Positions 4,022-7,031 of a stretch of 50,972 nt of DNA are shown one piece after another. Origin of the DNA: Cyanobacteria bacterium QS_4_48_99 (GTDB lineage: Bacteria > Cyanobacteriota > Cyanobacteriia > Cyanobacteriales > Rubidibacteraceae); the NCBI GenBank assembly GCA_003021505.1, contig PXPT01000021.1, positions 1-50,972 on the forward strand, read 5' to 3'. Position numbers and translations under genes: made by a program. Numbering within the stretch: the stretch's first letter is position 1; each line of letters opens with the position of its first letter. Under the pieces are notes generated by a model. The model had not been told where the DNA came from. It ran no database searches and was given only the letters and a program-made list of their open reading frames with translations.

Positions 4022-5221
4022 CTATAGACGTTGATAAGTAAGTTTGCCTGTCGCTTCCTCAAAGTTCCAGCGCAATAGTTGGGCGGGTTGTCCAGGGGAA
4101 ATCCCAGCTAAACCAATTGCTTGCCTGGGAACTTCTGTTGCTAAAAAAATGGCTTCTCCCACTCCACAAATCCCCCACTGTACTAAGTTCTCTACGCTAG
4201 ATAACAGGGGTAGGGTGGTTCCTGCTAGAGTGCCATCAGGAAGCCTTGCTGTGCCACCAACTACTTCAATCTCGCGGCTGTCCCACCGATAGATGCCGTC
4301 CGATAATCCCATGGGTGCGAGGGCATCGCTGACTAGAAAAATTCCTTCCTTGTTATCGCTGGCTCGCAGTAGCAGTTGTATAATTGTTGGAGTTATATGC
4401 TCTCCATCCGCAATTAAGCCACACTGAACCTTAGAATTAACTAAGGCAGCACCCAGCAAACCGGGTTCTCGATGGTGCAGTACCGGCATGGCATTAAAGG
4501 CATGAGTGACCATTGATGCCCCTGAAGCAAAGGCTTGTTGTGCCTGTGCAGCCGTTGCCAGAGAGTGACCAACACTGACAGTGATACCGAGAGAGCGCAG
4601 GTAGGGAATTACCTCACCGGTGGGATCTAATTCCGGTGCTAAGGTGATCAGTTTCACCACAGACGCATAATCTCCCAGTACCCGCTCAACATTCTCAATC
4701 GTCAGGGGTAACAGATACTCGGCCGGATGTGCGCCGCGCTTTTGGGGATTGAGAAAAGGTCCTTCCAGGTGGACACCGAGGATTTGGGCAAACTCGCCTT
4801 CAGTGGGTTGATTGGCGATAAAATCGGCAATAACGGATAGTGATCGCGCAATCTTTTCAGGGGAAGTAGTTACTATAGTGGGTAAAAAGGCAGCCACTCC
4901 CTGGTTCCACAAAAATTCGCAATTTTGTTGAAGGAGAGGAAGGTGTTGTCTCTCTAAGTCTGGAAAGGCTAACCCCAGCGCCCCATTGATTTGTAAATCC
5001 ACCCCGCCCATAGAAATCCAGTCTCCAGCCACATCTATCGTAGAGTGATTGGTGCGAAATTGGGCAGATTGCTGCATCGGTGCGATCGCTGCAATGATGC
5101 CCTGAGAATTAATTTGAATCTGCTGTAAATCTTGGTATCCCGGCAATCGAGCATTAATAATAGAAAGGTTGCTCAGTTGTGAACTAGCAGTTGTCGGTTG
5201 CCTGATTGCCTCGTTCATCAC
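4022..5221 (-). CDS. nagA: N-acetylglucosamine-6-phosphate deacetylase
   Basis: It removes the acetyl group from N-acetylglucosamine-6-phosphate, feeding cell-wall amino-sugar recycling in the cytoplasm. The amidohydrolase fold is shown by HLEGPFLNPQKRGAH (151-165, with metal ligand E153), SVGHS (H219), VTHAFNAM (H240) and the catalytic aspartate in LVSDA (D299). The N-terminal metal motif reads DLQING instead of HxH, as is common in NagA. The length of 399 residues fits the family. The start was taken at MMNEAIRQ; the second ATG is equally possible. It lies 86 bases upstream of sodC on the same strand. Confidence 0.93.
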   Translation of the reverse strand: MMNEAIRQPTTASSQLSNLSIINARLPGYQDLQQIQINSQGIIAAIAPMQQSAQFRTNHSTIDVAGDWISMGGVDLQINGALGLAFPDLERQHLPLLQQNCEFLWNQGVAAFLPTIVTTSPEKIARSLSVIADFIANQPTEGEFAQILGVHLEGPFLNPQKRGAHPAEYLLPLTIENVERVLGDYASVVKLITLAPELDPTGEVIPYLRSLGITVSVGHSLATAAQAQQAFASGASMVTHAFNAMPVLHHREPGLLGAALVNSKVQCGLIADGEHITPTIIQLLLRASDNKEGIFLVSDALAPMGLSDGIYRWDSREIEVVGGTARLPDGTLAGTTLPLLSSVENLVQWGICGVGEAIFLATEVPRQAIGLAGISPGQPAQLLRWNFEEATGKLTYQRL

Positions 5222-5526
5222 GTTTGCCTTTTATAGGAAGGCCTCAACTCTGTCTGTAGAGTTGGGTGAGTTTTCCCTAATATTAGATTCGCAGGATTAC
5301 CCATAAGCAAAATTTCCCCGTATCAAAAGAAGGCAAGAGGCAAAGGGCACGCATGAGTAACGTTTACCTCAGCCTTTCGCCTTCCGAGAAGCCCTTCGCA
5401 TGCTCACCTTCCGAGAATCTCCGCGTATGTCGTAACTATAGGGATTCACAGGGACTTGATAGAAGATCAAATCCCATCTATAAACCAAATCCCCCAGTAT
5501 TAATACTGAAGGGATTGGAGATTTTT
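5222..5526. other. Intergenic region between nagA and the 6S RNA candidate
   Basis: No convincing gene is present. A short inverted repeat CAACTCT/AGAGTTG (5245-5251 and 5258-5264) sits in the nagA leader, about 25-45 bases before its start. A larger hairpin lies at 5488-5516. The 69-codon plus-strand frame at 5353-5562 shows no protein-like features. Confidence 0.5.
5488..5516 (-). terminator. Palindromic hairpin downstream of the 6S RNA candidate
   Basis: AATCCC and GGGATT enclose the 14-base palindrome CAGTATTAATACTG (5495-5508). On the minus strand it begins about 11 bases beyond the predicted 3' end of the 6S-like RNA. It could stop the purK/6S transcript or mark a processing site. There is no good T run, so intrinsic termination is only a suggestion. 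Confidence 0.4.
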
Positions 5527-5709
5527 GGTTTCACCGCGACGCCGTCTTACCTCAGTTTTTGACCTCAAAATCCAGGTGGGCACCGACGTTCTCGCTTTAA
5601 GTTTCCGGGTACAAGCCCGGTTTACTGCCACGAGATCTGTTGGTTCCCTGATAAGGTCAAGTGTAGATCAAAAAACAATTTTGGCAGTCACCAACGTCGC
5701 AGCAAAACC
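5527..5709 (-). ncRNA. ssaA: 6S RNA candidate
   Basis: 6S RNA binds RNA polymerase holoenzyme and modulates promoter use. The minus-strand transcript would be 183 nt, the usual 6S size, and folds as one long rod. Its 5' end GGTTTTGCTGCGACG (5709-5695) pairs over 15 consecutive positions, three of them G-U, with CGTCGCGGTGAAACC (5541-5527). Inside lie GTTTTTTGATC against GGTCAAAAAC (one bulge), ACCAAC against GTCGGT, TCTCG against CGAGA, and an apical hairpin CCGGG/CCCGG (5605-5620). A TATATG box at 5722-5717 is seven bases from the predicted start. As I recall, cyanobacterial 6S RNA (ssaA) is often linked to purK, which ends 170 bases upstream here. The fold and size are seen; the identity is inferred. 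Confidence 0.82.
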
Positions 5710-5716
5710 TCTTGTC

Positions 5717-5722
5717 ATATAT
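5717..5722 (-). promoter_or_regulatory. Possible -10 box of the 6S RNA gene
   Basis: TATATG on the minus strand ends seven bases before the predicted RNA start at 5709. It is embedded in TTAATATATGAC. No clear -35 element at standard spacing is visible; TTGCGA at 5749-5744 is about 21 bases away, so the call is tentative. Confidence 0.4.
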
Positions 5723-5761
5723 TAATCTTTTTTACCGGGGTGCTCGCAAGGGGGTTAACCG

Positions 5762-5875
5762 ATTTTGGATTGACGATTGACGATTTTGGATTAAAGAAAT
5801 TGCTGTAATTGCGGGATTGGACATAATTCTAAATCCCTCTCAACTCCGTTTTCCAAAATCCAAAATCCAATTTTC
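5762..5875. repeat. GATTTTGGATT-type short repeats after purK
   Basis: Copies of ATTTTGGATTGACGATT and the inverted CCAAAATCCAAAATCC flank an unremarkable centre. Similar motifs recur at about 18811-18835 and 19019-19035. Simple repeats of this kind are common between cyanobacterial genes. No gene is seen. Confidence 0.5.
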
Positions 5876-5879
5876 TAGG

Positions 5880-7031
5880 TCAATCATACCAGAGGGAAGA
5901 AATTTGATCGGCGATCGCTTCTGCCCCAGAGTGCTGCCCTTCCCATAAAACTGTAACGTGTCCCAGCTTCCGTCCAGGGCGAGGCTCTGTTTTTCCGTAC
6001 CAGTGAAGGTGAGCTTTCGGGATTTGGGCTAATTTTTCTCGCTTGGCGGCGTAGTCGTGCTGCGCGTATTCGTATCCCAACAGATTCACCATGACTGCGC
6101 CATCACAGTGCAGGGTTGGGGAACCCAAGGGTAAACCTGTAACTGCCCGCAACTGCTGCTCAAACTGAGACGTTTCGCAGGCATCGAGCGTGTAATGCCC
6201 AGAGTTATGGGTGCGGGGGGCGATTTCATTAACCAACACCTCGCCTGCGGGAGTGAGAAATAGTTCAATACCAAAGACACCAACAGCTTGCAGTTGGCTA
6301 AGAAAGGTGTGGGCGATCGCTTCGATTTGAGAATTCACTGACTCCGAAATCGCCGCAGGCGCAATGACGCGATGACAAACTTGGTCTTCTTGCTGAGTTT
6401 CCACCACTGGATAAACAGCTATCTCTCCTGTCGCCCCACGAGCGGCAATGACTGCCAATTCTCGCTCAAAGGGCACAAACTCCTCCAGCAGCATGGCGGG
6501 GCATCCCAAATCCTCCCAAGTCTTACTTAGGGCTTGTTGGTCTTTAAAAATCAAAGTACCCTGACCGTCATATCCGTGACGCCTTGCTTTAACAACCACC
6601 GGAAAATCCCAAGAAGCTTCCTTGGCAAGAGACGAAAGTTTCTTCCCTTCTCCTCCAGCTTCGAGGGCAGTGAACCGAGGAACTGGCAACCCTAATTCCT
6701 GCAAATAGCACCGCTGACGATATTTATCTAACAAGGGAGCTAAATTTTCTAAACTGGGGCGAAAGCAAACTCCCTGCTTCGCCAGAGGCATCAACCCTTC
6801 CAGATTAATAAACTCATTCTCGAAGGTAATTACATCGCAACGCCTTGCGAGTTGGGCAGTTACTTCGGCATCGTCAACTGCTCCGATCACCACATCATCT
6901 GCCTTAGCCACGGCAGGTTTCTCGAAGCTAGGCGTTTGCACAACTAATGAACTCCCTAGCGCCTCAGCGGCACTCGCCATCATCGCAGCAAGTTGACCAC
7001 CACCAAGGACACCAACGCGCTTTAGTGACAT
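5880..7031 (-). CDS. purK: N5-carboxyaminoimidazole ribonucleotide synthase
   Basis: PurK uses ATP and bicarbonate to carboxylate aminoimidazole ribonucleotide in purine synthesis. The 383-residue length is normal for the family. The N-terminal pre-ATP-grasp domain begins VGVLGGGQLAAMM. The ATP-grasp domain includes FPVVVKARRHGYDGQG, LLEEFVPFERELAVI and the metal-binding VNEIAPRTHNSGHYT. The start ATG (7029-7031) overlaps the last 10 bases of the pentapeptide-repeat gene, so the two are probably translationally coupled. The probable 6S RNA gene follows on the same strand. Confidence 0.95.
   Translation of the reverse strand: MSLKRVGVLGGGQLAAMMASAAEALGSSLVVQTPSFEKPAVAKADDVVIGAVDDAEVTAQLARRCDVITFENEFINLEGLMPLAKQGVCFRPSLENLAPLLDKYRQRCYLQELGLPVPRFTALEAGGEGKKLSSLAKEASWDFPVVVKARRHGYDGQGTLIFKDQQALSKTWEDLGCPAMLLEEFVPFERELAVIAARGATGEIAVYPVVETQQEDQVCHRVIAPAAISESVNSQIEAIAHTFLSQLQAVGVFGIELFLTPAGEVLVNEIAPRTHNSGHYTLDACETSQFEQQLRAVTGLPLGSPTLHCDGAVMVNLLGYEYAQHDYAAKREKLAQIPKAHLHWYGKTEPRPGRKLGHVTVLWEGQHSGAEAIADQISSLWYD

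Follow-up and report, generated by a model that had tools for sequence, protein, structure and literature searches.

The minus strand at positions 5527 to 5708 of a 50,972-nucleotide stretch of DNA from Cyanobacteria bacterium QS_4_48_99 (contig PXPT01000021.1; the whole stretch is here called the window) is almost certainly the organism's single 6S RNA gene, probably with a −10 promoter of its own and with the hairpin at about 5485-5518 as its terminator. The gene is an ordinary member of an already known RNA family. Most sampled cyanobacterial 6S RNAs have a CCUGG/CCAGG hairpin on the 3' side of the central bubble, whereas the window's family has lost it and has gained complementarity between the 5' bubble and the 3' strand of P2, the helix that borders the bubble; this lineage feature may be new.

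The segment matched the Rfam 6S/SsrS family (RF00013) at 116.6 bits (cmscan, Rfam 15; E = 5.6e-23; cut-off, 46.4 bits), with model positions 1-187 all covered by the minus-strand match at 5708-5527, and this was the sole gathering-level match across the entire window. A preliminary description, made from the raw sequence, had named the segment a probable 6S RNA gene and had put forward this covariance-model search as the check on it; with a full-length, gathering-level match 70 bits over the curated cut-off, it had correctly recognised a genuine 6S gene. The 6S controls from Escherichia coli, Bacillus subtilis and Synechococcus elongatus responded under the identical search. One 6S match was found in the 3.62-Mb genome (99.9% complete), and its score was the highest of all genomes searched. 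Overlaps with CRISPR-DR21 (22.8 bits; cut-off, 48) and with mir-5429 and lncRNA families of Rfam were under their cut-offs and were treated as chance. A phage collection was searched and yielded no DNA similar to the segment.

The RNA shares the closing and apical stems and the modelled central bubble of RF00013 and E. coli ssrS, and it is like the cyanobacterial 6S RNAs (6Sa of Synechococcus PCC 6301, ssaA of Synechocystis PCC 6803, and Yfr7 of Prochlorococcus) in length, fold, and same-strand site downstream of purK. Of 60 related genomes, 58 gave a match with E ≤ 0.001 and 56 exceeded the cut-off; across the class, 188 of 195 sampled genomes matched, 186 of them above the cut-off. Among the variant copies, L068 and L069 (genomes G045 and G017) matched at only 35 bits, their ends and template stretch being conserved, their apical half strongly diverged, and their 3' bubble carrying an insertion; in L053 (G035), the apical hairpin is lengthened by about 30 inserted nt; and G031 has three matches (L050, L065, and L066), two of them nearly identical and in other neighborhoods.

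Two structural elements reported in the preliminary description, pairing of the ends of a 183-nt segment over 15 positions and a CCGGG/CCCGG apical hairpin, are both present, the first at 5709-5695/5527-5541 with three G-U pairs. The 183-nt strand has a folding energy of −69.2 kcal/mol (dinucleotide shuffles, −49.9 ± 4.3; z = −4.5; 0/200) and the downstream hairpin one of −15.9 (shuffles, −8.3; z = −3.5), which together place the structure well beyond chance. Covariation was assessed in a 57-sequence alignment, where 82.5% of the cells of the Rfam structure were paired, against 75.5% in shuffles and 35 to 49% with slid partners; sliding destroyed the covariation signal. Both-sided changes were seen in 31 of 51 model pairs, and doubly changed pair cells numbered 251 (106 in shuffles; 0/500 shuffles as high). 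The signal was carried largely by the closing stem (helix 1; both-sided changes in 10 of 17 pairs) and the apical hairpin (4 of 5 pairs; 99.3% of cells paired). RNAalifold, run on this alignment, yielded the same helices as the Rfam structure. The central bubble of the model is present, and folding of the free RNA predicts it to be partly to largely paired; this prediction, together with the weak T run and the promoter scan described below, speaks against the 6S reading.

This covariation and the covariance-model score argue against a fortuitous palindrome or protein-coding sequence, a reading suggested by a 66-amino-acid open reading frame (ORF) on the plus strand opposite the 6S RNA (5525-5725) and one to which we give next to no credence; the ORF has no Pfam match, and similar unexpressed ORFs lie opposite Yfr7 (Axmann et al., PMC1242208). 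A second plus-strand ORF (5353-5562) was likewise without a Pfam match. Both ORFs lie opposite 6S and the flank on its 3' side and are likely to be mis-annotated as genes.

The TATATG box that had been placed seven bases upstream is there (5721-5716, overlapped by TAATAT), lying six bases upstream of 5709 and seven upstream of 5708, where the model match starts. A TANNNT motif was found 4 to 14 nt upstream in 56 of 60 6S loci; control windows of comparable width gave 9 to 19 of 60. The palindromic hairpin noted downstream is also present; its stem begins about 8 bases past the 3' end, not the 11 first given, and its T run is weak (ATTTGGTTTA). Hairpins of at least 6 pairs within 75 nt downstream occurred at 35 of the 60 loci, compared with 9 in shuffles. 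The −10 box and this hairpin fit a stable, abundant RNA of about 180 nt. The palindrome was considered as a dispersed repeat and rejected, with one copy in the genome. Parts of the gap between purK and the 6S gene (5759-5871) recur at six other genome sites (72 to 97% identity) as a small intergenic repeat family, and the ATCCAAAATC stretch upstream belongs to a small family of repeats.

The segment begins 171 nt past purK on the same strand, and a promoter scan found no promoter-like (consensus) site at the expected place upstream; both observations would suit a structure in the purK 3' untranslated region or a degenerate 6S pseudogene without a transcript of its own. We consider such an origin very improbable against the intact fold, the −10 box, the top score and sole copy in a nearly complete genome, and the persistence of 6S RNA in genomes that have purK elsewhere than beside it. 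NCBIfam identifies the upstream gene as purK, as first described. The linkage, which the preliminary description gave as cyanobacterial, is published (Yfr7/6Sa downstream of purK, about 175 to 185 nt by Northern blotting; PMC1242208), and purK lies within about 1.5 kb of 28 of 61 6S loci (window included); it does not hold for most of the window's own family. Of 80 named cyanobacterial purK loci, 61 had a 6S motif, used as a proxy for the full covariance model, after the gene and in the same orientation. Unlike in these other cyanobacteria, linkage is gone in most sister genera of the window's family, where it is common only to the window and G003. The purK link is thus supportive and widespread, not universal. 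In the g2 genomes of the family (L018, L008, L014, L006, L024, and L057), the 6S gene lies away from purK, with an AbrB-like gene upstream in 6/6 and an M16-peptidase-like gene downstream in four (L006, L018, L024, and L057), both families being named from one example of each gene; a peptidase-like gene is also downstream of 6S in G002 and G003.

Table 1. Coordinates of the 6S RNA gene, its elements and its neighbors in the window
Feature	Positions	Strand	Evidence or remark
nagA, downstream gene	4022-5221	−	TIGR00221, 263.3 bits, over cut-off
Downstream hairpin, probable terminator	5485-5518	−	z = −3.5; weak T tract
6S RNA gene (ssaA/6Sa/Yfr7 homologue)	5527-5708	−	Full-length RF00013 match, 116.6 bits; covariation
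Closing stem, 3' strand	5527-5541	−	15 consecutive pairs with 5695-5709
P2 3' strand, AGGUCAAAAA	5556-5565	−	Common to P2, 3'-bubble hairpin and candidate collapse helix
Apical hairpin, CCGGG-CUUGUA-CCCGG	5605-5620 (give or take a base or two)	−	Covariation
Candidate central-bubble-collapse strand, UUGACCU (distal 5' central bubble)	5654-5660	−	Complements AGGUCAA
P2 5' strand, putative pRNA template, UUUUUUGAUCU	5665-5675	−	Near-invariant
Closing stem, 5' strand	5695-5709	−	15 consecutive pairs with 5527-5541
−10-like box, TAATATATG (TAATAT/TATATG)	5716-5724	−	TANNNT conserved upstream
purK, upstream gene	5880-7031	−	NF004679, 472.6 bits; TIGR01161, 431 bits; both over cut-off

6S RNA mimics an open promoter and holds the housekeeping polymerase, which is freed by pRNA synthesis (PMC8876501, PMC5721685); deletion of the Synechocystis homologue led to later recovery from nitrogen starvation and altered SigA recruitment (PMC5721685). 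By homology, the window 6S RNA would imitate a promoter, keep SigA-RNA polymerase bound and let go of it upon pRNA synthesis, and we infer its transcription, polymerase binding, pRNA synthesis, and physiological role on this footing. It would be transcribed from its own −10 promoter directly after purK and ended by the hairpin, giving a rod of about 182 nt whose central bubble would imitate a melted promoter and hold SigA-RNA polymerase, with less transcription of housekeeping genes under nutrient shortage. Once nucleotides are back, the polymerase would use the 5' side of the bubble as the template for a short pRNA that would open the adjacent helix and free the polymerase. The likely pRNA template is UUUUUUGAUCU, which is near-invariant in the 57 sequences and pairs with AGGUCA; the AGGUC of AGGUCAAAAA is invariant in them.

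Two modes of release have been described: in E. coli, an extended 3'-bubble hairpin (9 bp) that uses the P2 3' strand, and in B. subtilis and Aquifex, a central bubble collapse helix formed by the distal 5' bubble and the P2 3' strand (PMC8876501). Their existence lends some plausibility to a reading that we hold as a hypothesis and think less likely than not, namely, that the window RNA is a real 6S RNA with a lineage-specific release in which a UUGACCU/AGGUCAA collapse helix, and not the 3'-bubble hairpin, frees the polymerase. The window RNA appears scarcely able to form an equivalent of the E. coli hairpin: the CCAGG half is absent, the 3'-bubble hairpin is predicted at −3.7 kcal/mol (median in others, −9.1), and no stable E. 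coli-like 3'-bubble/P2 hairpin was found. In favor of the same reading, the CCUGG/CCAGG hairpin was found by motif in 0/9 of the window's family, compared with 44 of 51 outside it, and the median energy of the isolated 3'-bubble hairpin was −4.5 and −9.1, respectively.

The predicted pairing of the distal 5' bubble with the P2 3' strand, as in B. subtilis 6S-1, is present in the window sequence (UUGACCU/AGGUCAA, −9.0 kcal/mol; 0.4% of shuffles as good). The candidate helix uses the same regions as that of 6S-1 (PMC8876501), which also has a small 3'-bubble hairpin, the window being compared through sequence and predicted folding. For the free RNA, the predicted pair probability of the candidate helix is 0.7 to 0.9, and the predicted collapse-helix fold is favored over the P2 fold by 1.8 kcal/mol and persists with 14 template bases blocked in imitation of pRNA; that these energies are predictions for free RNA tells against reading them as a release step. 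The bubble-to-P2 duplex had a median energy of −7.6 in the window's family and −2.1 outside, and 8 of the 9 members reached −7.4 or better; in G003, the two strands carry matching changes (CCUGA[U]CC and GGUCAGG). Both observations support the collapse helix. Against it, the 5'-bubble complement to the P2 3' strand is absent from another member of the family (G008), and all nine members belong to one clade, which makes them one observation and not independent cases.

Recurrence was examined by a joint-state count and a rank correlation over 186 sequences from 55 families; f34 was parsed via an added alignment, most of its members being unparsed by the first method. A weak hairpin together with a strong complement was found in three families (f1, f34, and f46); the expected number was 0.22, and none of 200 bubble shuffles gave more than 2. 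The hairpin and complement thresholds were chosen after seeing the data, and the association fades at a −8 cut-off. The sharing of this state by f46 and f34 favors a collapse helix, and the post hoc thresholds weaken the case. In f46 (L270, L272, and L273), the 3'-bubble hairpin is weakened and the 5' bubble complements the P2 3' strand at −10.8 kcal/mol; this family may have reached the collapse-helix state independently. The weak-hairpin families f6, f10, and f49 lack a strong 5'-bubble complement, which also counts against the proposal. A trade-off between hairpin and collapse-helix strength gave a rho of −0.30 over the 55 families, with 44 of 200 shuffled bubbles as good; since this rank correlation, a further point against, is no better than shuffles, only the joint-state count was kept, as an exploratory result. 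The broader proposal that cyanobacterial 6S RNAs fall into two release types, the window's family and apparently f46 and f34 having swapped the hairpin for the collapse helix, we regard as rather unlikely, if worth stating. Our literature search, which covered non-subscription papers, found no description of a cyanobacterial collapse-helix variant.

Recognition of the window 6S gene fills the place of a known global regulator in the annotation. Should the bubble difference hold, natural cyanobacterial 6S variants would provide matched pairs for testing the refolding step that frees the polymerase, a question studied so far mainly in E. coli and B. subtilis. The central loop of the window 6S RNA suggests that release of the polymerase may, in a few cyanobacterial lineages, involve a refolding step unlike that of most; were the two release types true, a single phylum would have altered the exit step of a conserved RNA on more than one occasion.
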